Origin: Roseovarius mucosus
GTDB lineage: Bacteria; Pseudomonadota; Alphaproteobacteria; Rhodobacterales; Rhodobacteraceae
Length of the DNA: 64,000 nt
Reading direction: 5' to 3'
NCBI RefSeq assembly: GCF_002080415.1
Contig: NZ_CP020474.1
Coordinates: 2,059,501-2,123,500, forward strand
Shown here piece after piece: positions 23,155-42,401 of this stretch. Every line of letters begins with the position of its first letter. Positions within the stretch are counted from its first letter, which is position 1. Below the pieces are notes generated by a model, which saw only the letters and a list, made by a program, of their open reading frames with translations, was not told the origin of the DNA and made no database searches. A program made the position numbers and the translations under genes.

Positions 23155-24852
23155 TTACGCGCCAATCACTTGGACGCTGTTATTGGGGGCGACACTGACC
23201 GTGCCGAGTTTGCGAATGTGATTTTCGACCACGTCCCAGATTTCTGGGCCTTCGGTGTTTTCATTGACCGAAGCCCAACCGGCGACGACATAGGATTTCG
23301 CCGGATCAATCGCCTCGCCGGTCTTGAGCAAGGTCATATCGCTGATCCGGCTGCCCTGCGGCTGGTTGATGTCGATCCGGTATCCCATGCCACCGATGCG
23401 CACCATATCGCCGCCCTGCTGGTAATAGGGGTCGGGGTTAAAGATGTTGTCGGCCACGTCTTCGAGAATGACCTTGATGAATTCGCCTGTCATTTCAGAG
23501 CGATAGGCTTTGCCATAGGTCATTGAGGTGACATTGAAGATATCCTCGCGGGTGATGTCCTGACCGGGGATCAGGCTTGGCCCCCAGCGAACACCGGGGG
23601 ACATGGCGATATCGGCCTCACGCTCGGACAAAAGCGCGTCACAGATCAGATCATCCCACGTGCCGTTGAAATTGCCGCGCCGGTAGAGCAGGCTGTCGGT
23701 CTTGCCAATCACCTCGGTCAATTGATCGAGATAGGGCGCGCGTTGTTCCTCGATGAGGGTGGCCACCTCTTTGTCAGGTTCGATGACATCCGAGAAGATC
23801 GGGATCAGCTTGTGGCGAAAGCCCATCATCCGGCCATCGCGCACATCAAGATCAACGCGGCTCACGAATTTGCCGTTGGAACCAGAGGCGACGATGATCG
23901 TCTCACCAACCAGAACGGGCTCTGGCAGGGCGTCATGGGTGTGGCCTGACAGGATCACGTCGATGCCGGTCACACGGCTTGCCATCTTCTTGTCCACGTC
24001 AAAACCATTGTGGCTAAGGCAAACAACGAGTTCAGCACCTTGGCCGCGCACCTCGTCCACCATGGCCTGCATATTCTCGTCGCGGATACCAAAGCTGTAT
24101 TCCGGGAACATCCAGCCGGGGTTGGCAATGGGCATATAGGGAAAGGCCTGACCGATGACGGCGATCTTGACGCCACCCCGCTCAAAGAACTTGTAGGGTG
24201 GGAAGATCTCGACCGGCTCGTCCCATTCCGCGTCAAAGATGTTCTGTCCAAGCGCAGCAAAGGGCAGGCTTTCGACGATTTCCTGAACGCGGGCGGACCC
24301 GAGTGTGAATTCCCAGTGAAAGGTCATCGCGTCAGGCTTGAGCGCGTTCATGACATTGACCATGTCTTGGCCTGCTGTGTGGTAGCAGGTGTATGACCCA
24401 TGCCATGTGTCGCCACCATCGAGTAGAATGGCATCAGGGCGGTCGGCACGAATGGCATTGATCACCGTCGCCATCCGGTCCAGCCCGCCAACCTTGCCAT
24501 AGGCCTGCGCAAGCGCGCTGAAATCGCCAGCGGACAGGGCATAATGCGAGGCGCTGCCATCGTCGATGCCATAGAGCTTGCGGAAGTCTGCGCCTGTAAC
24601 ATGCGGCACGGCCCCCTTGTTTCCACCCACGCCGATATTGATCGACGGCTCTCGGAAATAGATCGGTTTGAGTTGGGCGTGAATGTCGGTGATGTGGATC
24701 AGGCTGACATTGCCAAAGGTGTCGAATTGCAACAGTTGGTCCTGAGTGAGCGCCTGTTGAGCCGCCAGTTTCGCCCAATTGCCAAAGGAAGACGCCCCAA
24801 GAATGGCTGACGCCGCCATGCTTGTCTGAAGAAAATCACGCCGCGAGATCAT
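23155..24852 (-). CDS. soxB: SoxB, dimanganese thiosulfohydrolase
   Basis: This 565-residue enzyme belongs to the 5'-nucleotidase metallophosphatase fold. It releases sulfate from the SoxY-bound S-sulfonate. It has a Tat leader SRRDFLQTS (RR at 4-5), metal-binding DIH (56-58 in HITDIHAQL), GGDTWHGS, LSHNGFD and SGHTHDALP, and a C-terminal nucleotidase domain from about 370. ATG 24852 is favoured because it starts the Tat signal. The upstream gap of 99 bases holds an intrinsic terminator and a candidate SoxR site, so soxB may have its own promoter. Confidence 0.96.
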   Translation of the reverse strand: MISRRDFLQTSMAASAILGASSFGNWAKLAAQQALTQDQLLQFDTFGNVSLIHITDIHAQLKPIYFREPSINIGVGGNKGAVPHVTGADFRKLYGIDDGSASHYALSAGDFSALAQAYGKVGGLDRMATVINAIRADRPDAILLDGGDTWHGSYTCYHTAGQDMVNVMNALKPDAMTFHWEFTLGSARVQEIVESLPFAALGQNIFDAEWDEPVEIFPPYKFFERGGVKIAVIGQAFPYMPIANPGWMFPEYSFGIRDENMQAMVDEVRGQGAELVVCLSHNGFDVDKKMASRVTGIDVILSGHTHDALPEPVLVGETIIVASGSNGKFVSRVDLDVRDGRMMGFRHKLIPIFSDVIEPDKEVATLIEEQRAPYLDQLTEVIGKTDSLLYRRGNFNGTWDDLICDALLSEREADIAMSPGVRWGPSLIPGQDITREDIFNVTSMTYGKAYRSEMTGEFIKVILEDVADNIFNPDPYYQQGGDMVRIGGMGYRIDINQPQGSRISDMTLLKTGEAIDPAKSYVVAGWASVNENTEGPEIWDVVENHIRKLGTVSVAPNNSVQVIGA

Positions 24853-24881: not shown

Positions 24882-24899
24882 ACATGCGGATTCTTGAAT
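24882..24899 (-). promoter_or_regulatory. Candidate SoxR operator upstream of soxB
   Basis: The minus strand reads ATTCAAGAATCCGCATGT. It agrees at 15 of 18 positions with the site at 27200-27183 (ATTCAAGAATACGAATTT) before soxX, and fits ATTC-N8-nnAT. It lies 30 bases before the soxB start and just after the soxA terminator. Confidence 0.55.
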
Positions 24900-24911
24900 G
24901 TTTTTGGATAT

Positions 24912-24943
24912 AGAAAACCCCGCCGACTGAAAGTCAGGCGGGG
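24912..24943 (-). terminator. Intrinsic terminator after soxA, inside the sox series
   Basis: On the minus strand CCCCGCC (24943-24937) pairs with GGCGGGG (24924-24918), with inner GACT/AGTC around TTC and one bulged T. TTTTCT follows. It starts eight bases after the soxA stop, so it should reduce read-through into soxB. Confidence 0.8.
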
Positions 24944-24951
24944 TATTCCGG

Positions 24952-25809
24952 TTAGTTTCGGATCGACGGGCCTTCGACCGACAGACCGTTGCCGCGCGAC
25001 GCGACATAAAGCTCGAGCGCGATGAACTCGGGGCTGCCAACAGCAAAGGTTTCGCCGCGCGTGTCGCGGATACAGCCACGGAAGCGGTTTTGAACGCCGA
25101 CCAACGCGGCATCCTTGAGGCGGTAGGCGGGGAAGGCGTTGATCTGACCCTGACTCAGGTGATCGGCCCGGATCATGTTGCCATAATTCTGCTCGTGACA
25201 ATTGGCGCAAGACAGTTCGAGCTGACCGTAACGGGTATAGTACATTTCCTTGCCCAGCTCCCAAGTCGCCTGAGCCGGCCCATCAATTGCAACGTTAACC
25301 GGCAATCCGCGCGAGACAGAGGCGAGCAGCGCGGTCATGTTGATCATCTCGGTCCCGCTGTATTTCCACTGTTCTGCGCCCATACGCTCGGTCCGGCAGC
25401 CGTTGACCTGCATTTCAAGCGTGCGCACTTCGCCAGCGGTCTCGTTCCACTTGGGATAGACGGCGCGTACGCCCTTCATGCTCTCGGCGGCATCACCATG
25501 ACAGCTTGCGCAAGATTTGCCTTCGGTGCCTTCGGCGGTTTCCCACGCGGTCATCGCATTCTCAACAAAGATCATGCCGGGATTGTCGAAATCATCGGCT
25601 TGCATGGCGCGGGTTTCCGCTTCGCGGAAATGCCACCCTGACAAAACTTCATCAACACTGTCTGCAAGATGCGCAGGGGCTGCGGTGCGGGTGATAATCT
25701 CGATTTCTTCGTTCACGATCAGCGTGTCATCCACAGCTTCGGCAAAGGCCGCCCCTGCCAAGAGCGCCGTTGCGCCGATCAGACCGGTAATCCGTCCTGT
25801 TCTTTTCAT
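24952..25809 (-). CDS. soxA: SoxA, diheme cytochrome c subunit of SoxAX
   Basis: This 285-residue periplasmic protein has a signal peptide (1-23). Two heme motifs, CASCH (C100, C103, H104) and CANCH (C201, C204, H205), are each followed by a distal cysteine (C138 in NGCRTER, C246 in RGCIRDT). In SoxAX enzymes the second of these cysteines becomes a persulfide heme ligand. With SoxX it joins thiosulfate oxidatively to the SoxY cysteine. It lies 27 bases after soxZ and before a terminator. Confidence 0.95.
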   Translation of the reverse strand: MKRTGRITGLIGATALLAGAAFAEAVDDTLIVNEEIEIITRTAAPAHLADSVDEVLSGWHFREAETRAMQADDFDNPGMIFVENAMTAWETAEGTEGKSCASCHGDAAESMKGVRAVYPKWNETAGEVRTLEMQVNGCRTERMGAEQWKYSGTEMINMTALLASVSRGLPVNVAIDGPAQATWELGKEMYYTRYGQLELSCANCHEQNYGNMIRADHLSQGQINAFPAYRLKDAALVGVQNRFRGCIRDTRGETFAVGSPEFIALELYVASRGNGLSVEGPSIRN

Positions 25810-25836
25810 TCTCGTCCCTCCCTTGACGATTGACCC

Positions 25837-26166
25837 TTACTTCAACTCGATTGGCTTGATGTCCTCGTAAACCGAGCCGTCGTCGTCGTACCAAGTGAAC
25901 TTGAATTCACCGGCTTCGGGCACGATGGCCGCGAATTCGATGTAAGGGTTGGTCGAGATTGCGGGTTCCATCGTCACGTCGACGATGCTCTGTCCGTTGA
26001 ACTCGCAGGTGAACCGATTGATGATAGAGCGCGGAATGATATTGCCTTCTTTATCCTTGCGCTGACCGGATTCCATCGGGTGGCTGATCAAGGTCTTGAT
26101 CGCAATCGCTTCGCCAGCGGCTGCGGATTTCGGGACCTTGACGCGGGGTGTGACGTCTTGTGCCAT
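25837..26166 (-). CDS. soxZ: SoxZ, sulfur carrier subunit
   Basis: This 109-residue immunoglobulin-like protein matches the family length. It contains RVKVPKSAAAGE near the N-terminus, ISHPMESGQRKD near 29-40 and a C-terminal FTWYDDDGSVYE. It has no signal peptide, as expected: the SoxYZ heterodimer is exported on the Tat signal of SoxY. It lies directly between soxY and soxA. Confidence 0.96.
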   Translation of the reverse strand: MAQDVTPRVKVPKSAAAGEAIAIKTLISHPMESGQRKDKEGNIIPRSIINRFTCEFNGQSIVDVTMEPAISTNPYIEFAAIVPEAGEFKFTWYDDDGSVYEDIKPIELK

Positions 26167-26188
26167 TCTGGTTTCTCCTACCTATGCC

Positions 26189-26605
26189 TCAGCCGCCGCA
26201 GCCGCCGATTGTAACCTTGACGTTGCTCGATGCCTTGGCAAAAGAGCCGTCGCTCATCTTGGCAATCGCCACCACGTCCTGCGTGCCTGCAAGACGAATG
26301 CGCGTGGATGCGGTTTGCGATGCGGCCAAGGGGCCAAATTTGAAGGTCGCAACACCGGGGGTCGGGTTGCCCATAGCCAGCACAAGGATTTCAACGGCAC
26401 CTGGGGCCGCAACCTCGATCGGCACGGTATTGCCATTCTCGGCGATTTCGGGGGCGGTCAAGGTGATCCCGCTATCGGCAATAGCGGCGCCTCCGGTGAA
26501 TTCGGCGATGCGATCCTCGCCTGCTGCGGTGGCGCGCATGGGCAAGCCAAAGGCGACAAAGGCGCCTGCCCCCATGATCATCACGTTGCGTCGTGTCAGT
26601 GTCAT
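26189..26605 (-). CDS. soxY: SoxY, thiosulfate-binding carrier subunit
   Basis: This 138-residue protein has a Tat leader (TRRNVMIMGAG, RR at 5-6) and the diagnostic C-terminal GGCGG at 134-138. Cys136 sits on this flexible arm, carries the sulfur intermediates and visits SoxAX, SoxB and SoxCD in turn. It is encoded directly before soxZ. Confidence 0.97.
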   Translation of the reverse strand: MTLTRRNVMIMGAGAFVAFGLPMRATAAGEDRIAEFTGGAAIADSGITLTAPEIAENGNTVPIEVAAPGAVEILVLAMGNPTPGVATFKFGPLAASQTASTRIRLAGTQDVVAIAKMSDGSFAKASSNVKVTIGGCGG

Positions 26606-26645
26606 GTTTTCAAACTCCTGATCTTGGTCACGCTGTCTGGCGCGA

Positions 26646-27116
26646 TTACTCTTTGAGGGTCACCAGATAAGCGACCACATCTTCAACTTGCTGTGCGGTG
26701 AGGAGGGGGCCGAATGTGCTGTCAGCCGCTTCGCCGGTAAAGGCGTTGCCCGGTCGCGTATACCCGTCCGTCCGATAGAAAGACGGCATCAGCGAGTCAG
26801 GGAACATCATCTTGGCGTTGGCCACGATGCCACGCAGTTCGGCTTCGCTCCACCGGGAACCTGTACCATCCAGCATCGGCCCGATTTCACCATGAAACGG
26901 AACGTCACTCATCTCGGTGATCTGATGACAGGCAACGCAATTGCCCAACGCTCGGTTGGCCAACACCTCACGGCCCGCCACCGGATCACCAACCGTGCCG
27001 CTTAATGAGTCTGTTATGGCCCCATCGGTAAACTTGACATCCGTCGGCGCAACTTCGGCCGCTGACGCGCTCATTGTCGCGCATATCAGCGACACCGTGA
27101 GAATTGATCGTTTCAT
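26646..27116 (-). CDS. soxX: SoxX, monoheme cytochrome c subunit of SoxAX
   Basis: This 156-residue exported cytochrome has a signal peptide (1-19) and one heme motif CVACH (C60, C63, H64). The distal methionine is probably in the SLMPSFYR segment near 113. It accepts electrons from SoxA. It opens the XYZA part of the operon, behind a 107-base gap with two candidate SoxR sites, so its own promoter is likely. Confidence 0.95.
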   Translation of the reverse strand: MKRSILTVSLICATMSASAAEVAPTDVKFTDGAITDSLSGTVGDPVAGREVLANRALGNCVACHQITEMSDVPFHGEIGPMLDGTGSRWSEAELRGIVANAKMMFPDSLMPSFYRTDGYTRPGNAFTGEAADSTFGPLLTAQQVEDVVAYLVTLKE

Positions 27117-27132
27117 GCGTCCTCCCTAACAC

Positions 27133-27148
27133 ATTCAGATTTTTGTAT
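27133..27148. promoter_or_regulatory. Candidate SoxR operator proximal to soxX
   Basis: ATTC (27133-27136), eight bases, then GTAT (27145-27148) fits ATTC-N8-nnAT. It begins 17 bases upstream of the soxX start codon. The second half is degenerate compared with the neighbouring site. Confidence 0.42.
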
Positions 27149-27182
27149 ATCATAGAACACAATCACGCGCTCACACAACAAT

Positions 27183-27202
27183 AAATTCGTATTCTTGAAT
27201 TT
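27183..27202. promoter_or_regulatory. Candidate SoxR operator, perfect ATTC-N8-GAAT dyad
   Basis: AAATTC (27183-27188) and GAATTT (27197-27202) form a perfect six-base inverted repeat around eight bases. The core is exactly ATTC-N8-GAAT, the form I recall for the SqrR operator. It lies in the soxW-soxX gap, where SoxR binding has been reported in Paracoccus-type systems. Confidence 0.65.
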
Positions 27203-27223
27203 AATGTGTTCCCGCGCGTGTTC

Positions 27224-27802
27224 TCACTGCGATTTCTCAGCCTCCCGTTCGGCGATGCGGCGCGCGTGATAGCGCTGGAAATCTTCCTCAGTATCAAGCG
27301 CATAGCGCTTTTCTTGCACCCAAGTGAGCAGATCCAACGTGGTGCCCGGACCAAAGGCGCCGGGCATCATTGCCACCGCCGCCTGTGCCGCTGTCTGATC
27401 CTCTGCCACCTCTTCGGGCAGGAACAGAATCGACGGCGTAAAGAGCAGGCCCCATTTGCGCGCCGCCTGTTTCTCGCTCAGCGACTCGCCATCGAAATCG
27501 ATCACTTCCAGATCACCATGCAGATTGAGCTGCACGACAAAGAAGTTCTCGCGAATGAAATCGGCAATCTCGGGGCGGGGAAACACCTCTTCGTGCATCT
27601 TGGTGCAGTAAATGCAGCCGCGCTGCTCGATCATCACCATCAGCCTTTTGCCCTCGGCGTTGGCATCCTCCAAATCCTCGCGCAGGTCCTTGAAGGTGTC
27701 ACGCATCCAGTCGGTCTTGTGCAGGCCATCATCGCCCAATTCCGCCGCAGCGACCGGCAGAGAAAACAGGACGGCGGCCAGCAGGGTCAGAACTCGTTTC
27801 AT
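27224..27802 (-). CDS. soxW: SoxW, periplasmic thioredoxin-like protein
   Basis: This is 192 residues with a signal peptide (1-20). The thioredoxin fold has the active site GCIYCTKMH (C63, C66) in a DsbD-gamma/SoxW-type context. It is reduced by the membrane protein SoxV, encoded 15 bases upstream, and in turn probably keeps the SoxY cysteine reduced. The C-terminus is basic and charged. Confidence 0.92.
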   Translation of the reverse strand: MKRVLTLLAAVLFSLPVAAAELGDDGLHKTDWMRDTFKDLREDLEDANAEGKRLMVMIEQRGCIYCTKMHEEVFPRPEIADFIRENFFVVQLNLHGDLEVIDFDGESLSEKQAARKWGLLFTPSILFLPEEVAEDQTAAQAAVAMMPGAFGPGTTLDLLTWVQEKRYALDTEEDFQRYHARRIAEREAEKSQ

Positions 27803-27817
27803 CTTGGTCCTCCTCGA

Positions 27818-28555
27818 TTAGATGTTTTGGAAGGCTGGGAATGTCTCCAGCATCCATTGGGCGATGTAATTGACGCTGTCGGTGGCAATGAGCGCGGCGA
27901 AGATGATCAGTAGCAGCCCCATCGCCTTTTCGACCTTGGGCAGGTGGCGGCGGAATTTCGAAGCAAAGCGCAGAAACGGCCCGATAAAAAGCGAGGCCAC
28001 CATGAAGGGCGTGGTCATGGCCAGACCAAACACCAAGAGCAGCACCAGCCCTTTCATCGCCGTGGCCTCGGTGCTTGCAGTGAAAACCACGGCTGTCAGC
28101 ACACCGCCCACACATGGCGTCCAACCTGCGGCAAAGGCAAAGCCAACCACATAGGCGCCAAGCACCGACATGTTCCGGGTATCGCCCGCATCCATCTGAA
28201 ACACCCGGTTAAGAAAGCCGATGCGCAGCACACCCAAAAAATGCAGCCCGAGGATCAGCACGACGAGCGCAGCAAAGAGGCGAAACTCGGTCTGAAAGCC
28301 GCGGAACGCCTGGCTGAGGCCAAAGGCGGCTGCCCCTAGCAAAACAAAGACAGTGATGATTCCCGCCGAGAACATTACCGATGCGGCAAAGGCACGGCGG
28401 CGCACGCCCGGGGCAAGACGGCCCTCGGCGCTGATCTCTGACATCGACGCTCCGGCCATGTAGCTGAGGTAAAATGGGACGATGGGCAGCACACAGGGCG
28501 AGAAAAAGACGATCAATCCCCCGACAAAGGCGCTGAGCAGAGAGACATCGAACAT
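27818..28555 (-). CDS. soxV: SoxV, CcdA/DsbD-type membrane electron carrier
   Basis: This 245-residue protein has six hydrophobic helices. The paired cysteines in SPCVLPIVP (near 20) and GWTPCVGG (near 134) are the redox pair of CcdA proteins. It moves reducing power from cytosolic thioredoxin to periplasmic SoxW. It is the first gene of the leftward sox series and is divergent from soxS, with a strong dyad between them. Confidence 0.93.
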   Translation of the reverse strand: MFDVSLLSAFVGGLIVFFSPCVLPIVPFYLSYMAGASMSEISAEGRLAPGVRRRAFAASVMFSAGIITVFVLLGAAAFGLSQAFRGFQTEFRLFAALVVLILGLHFLGVLRIGFLNRVFQMDAGDTRNMSVLGAYVVGFAFAAGWTPCVGGVLTAVVFTASTEATAMKGLVLLLVFGLAMTTPFMVASLFIGPFLRFASKFRRHLPKVEKAMGLLLIIFAALIATDSVNYIAQWMLETFPAFQNI

Positions 28556-28582
28556 GGGGAATCCTTAGACGGGTTGATCCGC

Positions 28583-28608
28583 AAACATATTCAAACTATC
28601 ATATGTTT
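28583..28608. promoter_or_regulatory. Candidate SoxR operator between soxV and soxS
   Basis: Perfect eight-base arms AAACATAT (28583-28590) and ATATGTTT (28601-28608) flank ten bases. The site contains ATTC-N8-ATAT starting at 28589. It is the only strong dyad in the 79-base divergent gap, so it can serve both soxV and soxS promoters. Confidence 0.6.
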
Positions 28609-28634
28609 TAGTCTGTCCGTCAATCGGAACACCG

Positions 28635-29003
28635 ATGCGTATGCTTGCTACCTTTCTCGTCAGCCTTTTTCTGACATTCGGCCTGATGGGTCCGCTCTTG
28701 GCGGCAGAACTGCTCATGGTCGAGCGGCATGGCTGCCATTGGTGCGAGCGGTGGAATGCCGAGATTGGCCCGGCCTATCCCAAAACCATCGAGGGCACAC
28801 GCGCGCCCTTGCGTCGGGTGCAGATCAACGCGCTGCCCGAAGATATCGCCTTTTCCAGTCGCCCCATTTTTACCCCAACTTTTGTTCTGGTCGAGGACGG
28901 TCAGGAACTGGGCCGGATCGAGGGCTATGCGGGCGATGAATTCTTTTGGTTTCTGCTGACGCAGCTTTTGGATGCGCATCCCGACGCAACCAAAGCGCCG
29001 TGA
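28635..29003 (+). CDS. soxS: SoxS, periplasmic thioredoxin-like protein
   Basis: This 122-residue protein has a signal peptide (1-24, ending LLAA) and the active site GCHWCERW (C34, C37). The cis-proline is in FTPTFVLV. SoxS reactivates oxidised SoxYZ in Paracoccus. ATG 28635 is used; ATG 28641 is possible. It is followed after five bases by soxR. Confidence 0.9.
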   Translation: MRMLATFLVSLFLTFGLMGPLLAAELLMVERHGCHWCERWNAEIGPAYPKTIEGTRAPLRRVQINALPEDIAFSSRPIFTPTFVLVEDGQELGRIEGYAGDEFFWFLLTQLLDAHPDATKAP

Positions 29004-29008
29004 TTCCG

Positions 29009-29350
29009 ATGCTACGCCGCGCTCCTCCTCCGCAACTGGATGTGTCGAACGAAAGCGTCGATGCGATGCTCGATCTGGCGCATACGGCGGCAGAGTTTCT
29101 CAAGGCAATCAGCCATGAGGGGCGGTTGATGATCCTGTGTCATCTCGCAACCGGTGAAAAGACAGTAACCGAACTTGAAGATCTGCTCTCGGCGCGACAG
29201 GCGGCCGTGTCACAACAGCTCTCACGCTTGCGCTTGGAAGGGCTGGTTACACCACGACGTGAAGGCAAAGCCATCTATTACCGTTTGACAGACCGGCGCG
29301 CGATACAGATGCTCGAAACTGTCTACGATCTGTTTTGCAAGCAGCCGTGA
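29009..29350 (+). CDS. soxR: SoxR, ArsR-family repressor of the sox genes (SqrR/BigR-like persulfide sensor)
   Basis: This is 113 residues. A winged helix-turn-helix covers about 25-105, with recognition region LSARQAAVSQQLSRLRLEG near 60-78. Two cysteines, C44 (MILCHL) and C110 (DLFCKQP), are separated by 66 residues. I recall the same spacing for C41/C107 of the persulfide sensor SqrR, where a tetrasulfide bridge relieves repression. ATG 29009, five bases after the soxS stop, is preferred over an upstream start inside soxS. Five matching DNA sites in the region are its likely targets. It is cytosolic. Confidence 0.9.
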   Translation: MLRRAPPPQLDVSNESVDAMLDLAHTAAEFLKAISHEGRLMILCHLATGEKTVTELEDLLSARQAAVSQQLSRLRLEGLVTPRREGKAIYYRLTDRRAIQMLETVYDLFCKQP

Positions 29351-29392
29351 TTCACGCGCCGCGGCCTTGCCAGCGTCAAACGGAGGAGCATC

Positions 29393-30439
29393 ATGCCCGG
29401 TGGCATTTCTGAATCCCTGATGATCCTGATATTCGGCTTTGCGGGCGGCATGATACTTGGGCTTGCGGCGCGCATCGGACGTTTCTGCACCTTGGGCGCG
29501 ATTGAGGATCTGCTCTATCAGCAGAGCGATACGCGTCTGCGCATGTGGGGGCTGGCGATTGGGGTGGCGGGGATCACGGCCTTTGGGCTGGCCGGTCTGG
29601 GCCTCTTTGATATTTCAGCCAATGCCTATTGGATCACGCCTTGGTCGCCGCTGGCCAGTGTTTTGGGTGGGCTGCTCTTTGGCTATGGTATGTCGCTGGC
29701 TGGGAACTGCGGCTTTGGTGCGCTCGCACGATTTGGCGGGGGTGATCTGCGGGCCTTTGTGATCGTGCTCGTGATGGGCATTTCAGCCTATGTGATGATG
29801 TCAGGCCCCTTTGCCCGGCTACGGATCATGGCGACAGAGGCGACAAGCCCTGCGTTGGAAAACCAGTCCTATGCGCAGATTCTGGGCGCGCTCACTGGGC
29901 TCCCGATGATCTGGGTCGGATTGGCGATTTCAGCGCTGATATGCCTAGCGGCGCTTGCCTCGCGCGACTTTTTACAGAACCGTCGGGCGCTCTTTTGGGG
30001 GGCGATGGTTGGGATTGCGGTCACATCGGGCTGGTTTGGCACCTCTTGGGTGGGCACGCATGGATTCATGCCGCAGCCGGTGCAAACGCATACATTCTCT
30101 GCGCCCCTCGGCGAGACTATCATCTTTCTGATGACCGCCAGCGGTGGTGGCCTCAGCTTTGGCGTGGCGTCGGTCTTTGGCGTGCTGGCCGGCGCGTTTT
30201 GCGGCAGCCTGATCAAAGGCCATTTCCGGTGGGAAGCCTGTGAGGACCCGAGGGAACTGCGGCGGCAGATGCTGGGCGCGGTCTGCATGGGCTTTGGCGC
30301 AGTGCTGGCCTTTGGTTGCACGGTCGGGCAGGGGATTTCCGCCTTTTCGGTGCTGTCCTTTAGCGCGCCGATCACCTTTGCCGCGATATTTGTGGGTGCG
30401 GCGATTGGCTTGCGCCAGCTCATCACCGGCTTTGCCTGA
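29393..30439 (+). CDS. soxT: SoxT-like YeeE/YedE-family membrane transporter
   Basis: This 348-residue protein has about nine or ten helices and cysteine loops GRFCTLG near 28, AGNCGFG near 103 and FGCTVGQG near 304, equivalent to those of YeeE. GGAGGAG lies three bases before ATG 29393. The order soxS-soxR-soxT matches the sox regulatory block known from Pseudaminobacter. Its cargo is presumably thiosulfate or another reduced sulfur compound. A signalling role has been proposed for related SoxT proteins. The 196 bases after it contain no gene. Confidence 0.8.
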   Translation: MPGGISESLMILIFGFAGGMILGLAARIGRFCTLGAIEDLLYQQSDTRLRMWGLAIGVAGITAFGLAGLGLFDISANAYWITPWSPLASVLGGLLFGYGMSLAGNCGFGALARFGGGDLRAFVIVLVMGISAYVMMSGPFARLRIMATEATSPALENQSYAQILGALTGLPMIWVGLAISALICLAALASRDFLQNRRALFWGAMVGIAVTSGWFGTSWVGTHGFMPQPVQTHTFSAPLGETIIFLMTASGGGLSFGVASVFGVLAGAFCGSLIKGHFRWEACEDPRELRRQMLGAVCMGFGAVLAFGCTVGQGISAFSVLSFSAPITFAAIFVGAAIGLRQLITGFA

Positions 30440-30635
30440 TCGCCCCCACGGAATAGGGCACACGAGAGTGAAAGGCGTGGCTGGTGCCAAATACCCCACA
30501 GGACGGATCGAGGCATACAGCCCCGCAAGATGCGCCTAGGCCAGAGATTGTGGCATAAGCATGATCACCGCCGCTAGACCGTCATTGGTTAGCATGATCC
30601 GAGCATAGCGCCCCCTGCCCTGCCTTGGCGTTGGC

Positions 30636-31520
30636 TTAGAGACGGTTAACAGGGAGCTTCAACATCGGGTTGCCCGCGCTATCACGGGGCAATTCGCCCG
30701 CGCGCATGTTGACCTGCAAAGACGGCAATATCAGCCGGGGCATGGCAAGCTGTGCGTCGCGCTCTGTGCGGAACTTCACAAAGTCTTCACGGGTCTTGCC
30801 GCCGCCTACATGGATGTTATGCGCCCTTTCCGCCCCGACGGTGGTTTCCCACTGAATATCGCGGCCGTTTGGGCCGTAATCGTGGCACATGAAAAGACGC
30901 ATGTCGTCGGGCAGGCGCAGAACCCTTTGGATGCTGTCATAGAGCTCACCCGCATCACCGCCGGGGAAATCCGCCCGCGCAGACCCACCATCAGGCATGA
31001 AGAGCGTGTCGCCAACAAAGGCGGCATCGCCCATCACATGCACCATGCAGGCGGGCGTGTGGCCGGGCGTGTGGATCGCAAGGCAGTTCATTTGGCCTAC
31101 CTTATAGGTGTCACCATCTTTGAACAAAGCATCGAACTGGCTACCATCACGCTGAAACTCGGTGCCTTCGTTGAATATTTTGCCAAAAGTGTCCTGAACC
31201 ACCAGAATCTTTTCACCAATTCCAATCTTGCCGCCCAGCTTCTGCTGAATATACGGCGCTGCCGAGAGATGATCGGCGTGGACATGGGTCTCGATGATCC
31301 ATTCAAGCGTCAGGCCGTGATCCATAACATGGGCAATCATTGCATCGGCATGGGCATAGGTGATCCGCCCTGCTGCCATGTCGATATCCATCACGCTATC
31401 AATCACGGCACAGGCGCGCGATTCGGGGTCCTTAACCACATAGCTGATCGTATTCGTGGCCTCGTCAAAGAATGCTTTGACCTCTGGCTTGACGCCCATG
31501 TTCACGGGATAGTCGGTCAT
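30636..31520 (-). CDS. MBL-fold hydrolase, persulfide dioxygenase-like (Blh type)
   Basis: This 294-residue metallo-beta-lactamase-fold protein has THVHADH (H79, H81, D83, H84), HTPGHTPA near 148 with a further metal histidine, and a late HDYGPNG near 214. These are the ETHE1/Blh ligands for a mononuclear iron that oxidises glutathione persulfide to sulfite. It is cytosolic. ATG 31520 overlaps the preceding YeeE gene by ATGA and has AAGGAT upstream. The YeeE-pair plus dioxygenase arrangement matches the BigR-controlled sulfide-detoxification operon of rhizobia and Xylella. Confidence 0.82.
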   Translation of the reverse strand: MTDYPVNMGVKPEVKAFFDEATNTISYVVKDPESRACAVIDSVMDIDMAAGRITYAHADAMIAHVMDHGLTLEWIIETHVHADHLSAAPYIQQKLGGKIGIGEKILVVQDTFGKIFNEGTEFQRDGSQFDALFKDGDTYKVGQMNCLAIHTPGHTPACMVHVMGDAAFVGDTLFMPDGGSARADFPGGDAGELYDSIQRVLRLPDDMRLFMCHDYGPNGRDIQWETTVGAERAHNIHVGGGKTREDFVKFRTERDAQLAMPRLILPSLQVNMRAGELPRDSAGNPMLKLPVNRL

Positions 31521-31951
31521 GCCGTTATCCTTTTGTCTGACTGTTTCGTTTGAATCATATTCGCCACCCAAATCCCGGACAAGAGCGCGGCTACAAAGGC
31601 CAGCACCTCGTATTTGCCAGAGCCAAGCGCCGGAATAGCCGCGCCGGGGCAAAACCCGGCGATGCCCCAACCAAGGCCAAAGACCGCTGACCCCCCAATC
31701 AGACGGGTATCAATGACCGTCTTGGTGGGCAGCTTGAACTTTGGCTCGAGGATCGGCTTGGGGCGTCCGAGCACCACGCGGTAACCGACAAAGGTGGTAA
31801 GCAGCGCACCACCCATCACAAAGATCAAGCTTGGGTCCCATGTCCCGGCGATGTCAAAGAAGTTGAGCACCTTAGCCGGATTGATCATACCAGAGATGGC
31901 AATTCCCACGCCAAAAACAAGACCGACAAACAAGGCTGACAGAATGCGCAT
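31517..31951 (-). CDS. Half-size YeeE/YedE membrane protein (PmpB-like)
   Basis: This 144-residue protein has four hydrophobic helices and the cysteine motif GFCPGAA near 100. It corresponds to one half of a full-length YeeE transporter and probably forms a dimer with the product of the gene three bases upstream. The family is linked to sulfur-compound transport across the inner membrane. Confidence 0.8.
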   Translation of the reverse strand: MRILSALFVGLVFGVGIAISGMINPAKVLNFFDIAGTWDPSLIFVMGGALLTTFVGYRVVLGRPKPILEPKFKLPTKTVIDTRLIGGSAVFGLGWGIAGFCPGAAIPALGSGKYEVLAFVAALLSGIWVANMIQTKQSDKRITA

Positions 31952-31954
31952 GGC

Positions 31955-32395
31955 TCAGGCTCCAATCACGTGACGCAGGACATAGACAGTCGCAAAGGCC
32001 ACGACCATAAAGGTCAGCGTGGCTACGAATGACCGAGGCGAAAGCCGCGCAAGGCCGCAAACCCCATGACCCGAGGTGCAGCCAGACCCAAAGGTCACGC
32101 CGATGCCCACGATGAAGCCCCCAATCAAGATCATCGGCAGACTAATCGGCACCTCGACTGCGGGCATCTGCCCGGTCAGCCCCAGCACCAAAAGCGGTCC
32201 GGCGATCATGCCTACAACCATCGCCGCGCGCCAGATTTTATCGCCCGGCACCCCGCCGGTAATCAATCTCGACAGAATGCCAGTGGCCCCCATGATCCGA
32301 CCTTGAAAAAACATCAGCAACACTGCTGACAAGCCGATCAACACACCGCCCGCAAATGACATCAGCGGGGTAAATTCAGTTTCGGTGCCTGTCAT
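31955..32395 (-). CDS. Half-size YeeE/YedE membrane protein (PmpA-like)
   Basis: This 146-residue protein has four hydrophobic helices and GSGCTSGHGVCG near 105-116. It is the complementary half of a split YeeE transporter. ATG 32395 is preferred over an upstream start because AGAGG precedes it closely. It is the first gene of the three-gene operon ending with the dioxygenase, and its promoter contains a SoxR/BigR-type dyad. Confidence 0.8.
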   Translation of the reverse strand: MTGTETEFTPLMSFAGGVLIGLSAVLLMFFQGRIMGATGILSRLITGGVPGDKIWRAAMVVGMIAGPLLVLGLTGQMPAVEVPISLPMILIGGFIVGIGVTFGSGCTSGHGVCGLARLSPRSFVATLTFMVVAFATVYVLRHVIGA

Positions 32396-32445
32396 CTCTT
32401 TTCCTCTCTGGTCACGGCAAAACACCCGTCAGGGTGCCTGTGACG

Positions 32446-32471
32446 ATTATATAAGATTTTTTGAATATAAT
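32446..32471. promoter_or_regulatory. Candidate SoxR/BigR operator before the split YeeE-dioxygenase operon
   Basis: Seven-base arms ATTATAT (32446-32452) and ATATAAT (32465-32471) flank twelve AT-rich bases. The minus strand contains ATTC-N8-TTAT and shares ATATTCAAAnnATCnTAT with the soxV-soxS site. It lies 51 bases before the start codon at 32395. Confidence 0.58.
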
Positions 32472-32536
32472 AAAGGAAGTCACGGTTTCGCAGCCCCCAA
32501 AGGAGCTGGTCACGAAAATTTCACCTTACTCCGCGC

Positions 32537-42138: not shown

Positions 42139-42401
42139 GGTAACCTCTGGCTGATCTTTGGGGCTATGGGCTCTTTTATAATTATGAGTTTTACTAACAA
42201 AAAGGAATAAAATCTAATGTTTGTCGTAACAATGACTTACACACATGATCTCAGGTAATCCTCTGGGCGCGGCGACAACTCTTTGCCAAAGCTTAAAATT
42301 TGTGCATGATTGAGGGATAAGCGGGCATGAAACCGCATTGGGACCCGTCTGTCGCAACAATTTCGATTGCACAGGCCCCCTGACAGGGAAAGCATGATCC
42401 T
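42139..42401. promoter_or_regulatory. Divergent intergenic region, AT-rich centre
   Basis: These 263 bases separate the SDH-like operon from the ATP-grasp operon and must hold both promoters. The part at about 42170-42230 is strikingly AT-rich (for example TTTTATAATTATGAGTTTTAC). I see no clear dyad and no coding frame. Confidence 0.5.

Follow-up and report, generated by a model that had tools for sequence, protein, structure and literature searches.

Which repressor reads the operators of a locus where genes of thiosulfate oxidation adjoin an operon of persulfide removal? The question is raised by a stretch of 64,000 nucleotides (C1:2059501-2123500; here the window, meaning the whole stretch analysed) from the 4.38-Mb genome of a Roseovarius-type alphaproteobacterium. 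It carries soxSRT, soxVW, soxXYZA and soxB onward next to a yeeA-yeeB-persulfide dioxygenase (PDO) operon, and the nearest named relative of its SoxR is that of Roseovarius sp. 217 (94% identity). The original prediction, made from the letters of the window alone, had assigned five related promoter sites to one persulfide-sensing SoxR regulon. Our analysis retains the sites and their common motif, and makes it probable that two persulfide sensors share one operator code, with SoxR reading it at the sox genes and a paralog, perhaps together with SoxR, at yeeA-yeeB-PDO.

One dyad at the sulfur promoters

Five sites fit the pattern ATTC-N8-nnAT, at 24884 (minus strand), 27133 (plus), 27185 (both strands), 28589 (plus) and 32451 (minus), and a pattern scan of the window placed each of them where it had been predicted: in the gaps before soxB, before soxX (two sites), between soxV and soxS, and before yeeA. 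Their common 20-bp dyad is A[ACT]ATTC-N8-GAAT[AGT]T. The predicted operator before soxB (24882..24901, minus strand, ACATTCAAGAATCCGCATGT) matches the stricter form AHATN8TTGAATDT exactly, and the soxX-proximal operator (27131..27150, plus, ACATTCAGATTTTTGTATAT) has one mismatch to it. The second soxX operator (27183..27202, plus, AAATTCGTATTCTTGAATTT) is, as had been claimed, a perfect ATTC-N8-GAAT dyad, and by direct count it agrees with the soxB site at 15 of 18 bases. On both strands a promoter-like second hexamer overlaps the operator in the soxV/soxS divergent gap (28587..28606, plus, ATATTCAAACTATCATATGT), and the end of the one before yeeA-yeeB-PDO (32449..32468, minus, ATATTCAAAAAATCTTATAT) overlaps a TATAAT. 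The sequence ATTC-N8-GAAT, which the original prediction had quoted, is indeed given as the recognition sequence of SqrR (PMC9774250). It is exact at 27183, and the other four sites combine one full half with a weaker half.

As stand-alone patterns, ATTC-N8-nnAT (26 matches at 24 places in the window), ATTC-N8-GAAT (44 places in the genome) and ATTCAAN8AT were rejected as too unspecific. Weight matrices separate the sites far better. With a 20-bp matrix the leave-one-out scores of the five are 18.0, 13.9, 20.6, 17.3 and 25.3, and the best other place that the window's own matrix finds in the 64 kb, at 42201, scores 11.8. A palindromic motif was also derived de novo, by expectation-maximisation on soxV/S, soxX and soxB promoter regions of relatives, with this genome itself left out. 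A first set of 194 regions (loci L007-L080, the six closest omitted, SoxR at most 80% identical, six distant loci titled Roseovarius still included) yielded AAATTCACATATGTGAATTT, and its matrix ranks the five sites first in the window (25.6, 21.5, 16.9, 16.7 and 16.3; sixth place 9.3). A second set of 176 regions from 62 loci, excluding every locus titled Roseovarius, gave the same motif and the same five first (25.4 to 15.4; next 8.7); the sixth place is 54633 under either matrix. Training used sox promoters only and no PDO operon, so the matrix that picked out the PDO site had met no PDO promoter before.

The motif recurs in relatives. Across 80 loci the window's own matrix scores at least 12 in 55 of 72 soxX regions, 45 of 66 soxB regions and 44 of 74 soxV/S regions, with 30 matches elsewhere in the 1.48 Mb scanned. 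These sequence comparisons confirm the five predicted operators as real sites of a single motif, of SqrR type, conserved at the soxX, soxB and soxV/S promoters of many relatives. Five of the 30 other matches are operator-like dyads just upstream of soxC (L016:3784, L028:4440, L048:3889, L072:3901 and L080:4432).

The two soxX operators lie exactly 52 bp apart, about five helical turns, a spacing that fits two dimers on one face of the helix. It recurs in all 12 loci having two non-overlapping soxX sites (those with the spacing are titled Roseovarius, Litoreibacter, Roseobacter and Sulfitobacter) and is not general, as the average over 65 loci has no second peak. Many aligned PDO promoters carry, upstream of the PDO operator, a second conserved block like GATTTTCGTGAC, at about 32508-32525 in the window.

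Genome-wide, the four exact matches to AHATN8TTGAATDT in 4.38 Mb all fall in this locus; one mismatch separates the fifth site from the pattern, a level reached by 65 other places. This pattern was drawn from the sites themselves and so measures rarity, not independent discovery. The form AHATTCN10ATDT occurs at 41 distinct places in the genome, five of them in this locus. We scored 125 distinct candidate places, collected by three pattern scans, which do not amount to an exhaustive matrix scan. Eleven reach at least 16: the five sites, one further sulfur-gene site described below, and five places away from sulfur genes. The original prediction had named many equally good matches in unrelated coding regions as the result that would speak against it; this holds only to a slight degree, with six of the 11 at sulfur genes and two of the other five within reading frames. 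Clustering of the predicted operators at sulfur genes in this genome is supported.

The highest score among the 125 places (26.0) belongs to C1:2277726-2277745 (L146:2527-2546), directly before two genes for metallo-beta-lactamase-fold proteins that by eye look exported. The second is related to SoxH models, below their cut-offs, and we read the pair as a probable soxG with a soxH-like gene, after the names used in Paracoccus. Clusters of Sulfitobacter contain both soxG and soxH (PMC11034169). The soxG-like gene is about 189 kb from soxR here, and in 15 other genomes of the genus it lies about 11 to 16 kb away on the same contig. Its upstream site is kept in all 20 scoreable SoxR-bearing genomes with a gene of at least 55% identity, this one included, a count that omits eight genes matched at only 37-41% identity (L214-L221), upstream of which no score exceeds 3.8, and the masked genome G150. 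The site is absent (-13.0) from G163, the sole sox-less genome with a soxG-like gene, whose gene start is uncertain.

SoxR and its paralog

The soxR gene (29009..29350, plus strand) has a frame of 112 residues and encodes an ArsR-family repressor of the persulfide-sensor type, with Cys43 and Cys109. The protein matches HTH_5 with 41.6 bits and its gene has soxS, soxT and soxV as neighbours; by these features it qualifies as an ArsR-type SoxR, a predicted winged-helix protein whose gene stands with soxS and soxT at a sox locus. The genome also encodes a second SqrR/BigR-like ArsR protein, 69% identical to SoxR, at C1:2778519-2778851 (L085:9508-9846, about C1:2778507-2778845), near genes that by eye are clpP and clpX. 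Both belong to the known SqrR/BigR/SoxR type. The closest solved structure of both is the same ArsR protein, whose entries say only 'ArsR family' and which we take to be Rhodobacter SqrR.

The segment QAAVSQQLSRLRLEGLV, presumably the recognition helix, is identical in SoxR and the paralog of this genome. In either group no other form is as frequent: it occurs in 65 of 104 sox-linked proteins and in 8 of the 15 of the paralog group, and the two sensor cysteines are kept in all 104 and all 15. The shared segment makes cross-binding of the operators by SoxR and the paralog likely.

An operator about 3 kb from the paralog was considered and rejected, the match lying within an ABC-transporter gene. 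In one relative (L128:753-1036), a paralog-type ArsR gene, 74% identical to the paralog and 62% to SoxR, is divergent from yeeA-yeeB-PDO.

Distribution of the sites across genomes

A search for yeeB, soxG, soxR and soxB covered 40 genomes of the genus, a sample of a larger group. The PDO site was scored in 23 of the 25 genomes with a yeeB of at least 51% identity; the other two were G173 (-5.4, at a contig end) and G166 (upstream sequence absent), and genomes with a weak or fragmentary yeeB match (G150, G151, G152 and G164) were left out. Second copies of 65-100% identity were grouped as paralogs and those of 61-64% as distant second copies, using a tree of few columns with many forks open and a midpoint root for drawing only.

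The PDO-operon site is present in nine of nine genomes with SoxR and the paralog (seven at a cut of 10), in four of four with the paralog only, which have no soxR or soxB match, and in none of five with SoxR only. It occurs in one of four genomes with SoxR and a distant second copy and is missing from the single genome with neither. When only close paralogs (at least 80%) are counted, the figures are seven of seven with both proteins and two of two with the paralog only. The sox sites follow SoxR: among scoreable SoxR-only genomes the soxV/S site reaches at least 14.5 in 11 of 13 and the soxB site at least 13.2 in 12 of 12, and the soxB site is missing in the six genomes with a distant second copy. 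Fourteen PDO promoters, four of them from sox-less genomes and all selected for the closeness of the operon or for a site that could be seen, were aligned; judged by eye, the PDO operator is one of the best conserved blocks. This distribution argues for the paralog as the usual reader at the PDO operon, in genomes whose relatedness keeps the pattern from being proof.

Several observations weigh against assigning the PDO operator to the paralog and the sox operators to SoxR. Ancestry confounds the link between paralog and PDO site, yeeB being 51-68% identical in SoxR-only genomes against 71-100%. Presence of the site was judged without a cut fixed beforehand: two of the nine genomes with both proteins score 7.3 and 7.5, and were counted for an element visible in the alignment. 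The line between paralog and distant copy was drawn post hoc on tree groups with weak deep forks, and with all second copies counted the site is present in 10 of the 13 genomes that have both. For G177, where the PDO match has only 39% identity, orthology is doubtful. In family-level loci a PDO site of at least 12 lies within 300 bp of yeeA in 6 of 30, the window's included, irrespective of the paralog. The promoter of the paralog itself carries no site (-6.8). Five places away from sulfur genes also score at least 16, two within mechanically called reading frames (3385060 and 2439722) and three in gaps (501495, 4027487 and 564545) whose neighbours have no evident sulfur link.

Among other readings, the one that fares best has SoxR and the paralog both binding all sites and co-repressing as homodimers or heterodimers; it overlaps with two sensors dividing one code, the two not being exclusive, and we give it an appreciable chance, well short of even. 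The identity of the presumed recognition helix is in its favour. Moreover, SoxR and sHdrR of Hyphomicrobium bind the same four probes, and such co-repression has been proposed for them (PMC12423496). The unlike distributions of the two site classes nevertheless suggest at least a preferred partner at each.

It appears unlikely that SoxR alone reads all five sites and the paralog has other duties, as the original prediction would have it in letting the same ArsR protein run thiosulfate oxidation and persulfide detoxification. One matrix is common to the five sites, and in this genome as in several relatives the PDO operon has soxR nearby; but in a single SoxR regulon all sites should co-occur with soxR, and the PDO site is kept in four of four scored genomes that have the paralog and no soxR or soxB match, and in none of five with SoxR only. 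This genome moreover encodes, elsewhere, the paralog with its identical presumed recognition helix. In the four SoxR-less genomes, exact AYATTCN10ATAT occurs at 25 places, and each of the four has one of these in its PDO promoter; 11 of the 25 were scored, and the two non-PDO ones above 12 lie within open reading frames. Of the single regulon, what stands is the SqrR-type motif, conserved at sox promoters and clustered at sulfur genes; its reading by one protein is not supported in that form. Finally, it is very improbable that the motif is imitated by AT-rich promoter DNA (a -10 box with its spacer) and has no repressor code behind it. Promoter-like hexamers do coincide with some sites, and the AT content of the gaps exceeds that of the window; but for each of the four gaps at most 0.17% of 3000 mononucleotide shuffles reached the best score observed, column-permuted matrices gave a fifth-best score of 16 in 0 of 200, and the upstream regions of 21 second-copy genes, the paralog's own included, score at most 9.0.

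The mechanism proposed for these sites is modelled on studied homologues. A reduced repressor dimer would sit on the dyad across promoter elements and block transcription; sulfane sulfur would then bridge the cysteine pair, the dimer would leave and the genes would be expressed. SoxR would be the main reader of the soxV/soxS site, the two soxX sites, the soxB site and the sixth site at soxG/soxH, and the paralog the likelier main reader at yeeA-yeeB-PDO, with each probably binding at the other's sites as well. Thiosulfate oxidation would in this way be coupled to persulfide removal.

The locus and known systems

Around soxR, the adjoining soxS-like gene (28635..29003, plus strand) is conserved in relatives and matches no Pfam family at the threshold used, and soxT (29393..30439, plus) encodes a YeeE-like (Sulf_transp) membrane protein (PF04143). 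On the minus strand lie soxV (27818..28555), of CcdA/DsbD_TM type by Pfam, soxX (26646..27116), the first gene of soxXYZA, and soxB (23155..24852), identified by a Pfam match and conservation in relatives. The PDO operon, also on the minus strand, comprises a yeeA-type half transporter (Sulf_transp, PF04143; 31955..32425, with a possible alternative ATG start at 32395), a yeeB-type half transporter (DUF6691, PF20398; 31517..31951) and a persulfide dioxygenase-type protein (30636..31520) related to the dioxygenase part of Blh. The last aligns to positions 139-423 of the Blh model NF040641 with 371 bits, below the full-length cut-off of 625, and to PF00753 with 61.9 bits, which assigns it by sequence to the metallo-beta-lactamase fold of the Blh dioxygenase type.

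The soxSRT context is as in the title of a Pseudaminobacter paper, and cooperative SoxR binding is reported in a Pseudaminobacter title. Like SoxR of Hyphomicrobium denitrificans, Paracoccus and Pseudaminobacter, the SoxR described here is of ArsR type, with two conserved cysteines and sox intergenic targets (PMC10451225). In Hyphomicrobium, SoxR dimers in the reduced state keep the promoters blocked until sulfur bridges the cysteines and the DNA is released (PMC10451225). Unlike in those systems, we have here a 20-bp operator consensus for Rhodobacterales, a predicted soxG/H site and a further sensor that has this helix segment in common with SoxR; a text search of the main text of the two Hyphomicrobium SoxR papers found none of 'ATTC', 'palindrom' and 'inverted repeat'. 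The recognition sequence is shared with SqrR of Rhodobacter capsulatus, whose targets are however given as sqr and a rhodanese gene, in a paper where no word starts with 'sox' (PMC9995734).

BigR control of yeeE-yedE-PDO operons has been described (PMC7315123), and the predicted control of the PDO operon resembles that by BigR of Xylella/Agrobacterium and of Acinetobacter, where an ArsR repressor that senses persulfide or sulfide governs a yeeE-yedE-PDO or dioxygenase operon (PMC7315123, PMC5823870). Unlike with BigR, the paralog gene is not beside the operon, and SoxR (95.5 bits) and the paralog (94.7) stay below the 155-bit cut-off of the BigR model NF040642. A survey already names sqr, sox, pdo and transporter genes as proposed targets of this regulator family (PMC12423496). 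A parallel to two related sulfane-sulfur-responsive repressors with common target DNA is the SoxR/sHdrR pair of Hyphomicrobium (PMC12423496), although sHdrR belongs to the sHdr pathway and the second target here is a transporter-dioxygenase operon.

SoxR control of sox promoters, BigR control of yeeE-yedE-PDO and a pair of related sensors sharing targets have thus been described. A two-sensor link between sox and PDO in Roseovarius-type bacteria was not described in the titles and beginnings of abstracts searched, a body of text that takes in little of the subscription literature. Of real interest is the way in which a single operator code may be divided between a pair of sensors.

Rhodobacterales have weight in the marine sulfur cycle, and our results provide an operator consensus for their SoxR-type repressors together with a further predicted target, soxG/soxH. 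They also pose the question of how near-identical sensors divide a regulon. On the sequence evidence it is tentative, at somewhat under an even chance, that repressors with the same helix share an operator code in one cell with their targets kept apart in evolution, energy-yielding thiosulfate oxidation for SoxR and persulfide detoxification for the paralog. If they do, insulation would need half-site degeneracy, flanks, dimer pairing or signal affinity, and loss of sox together with soxR would leave the detoxification branch intact.

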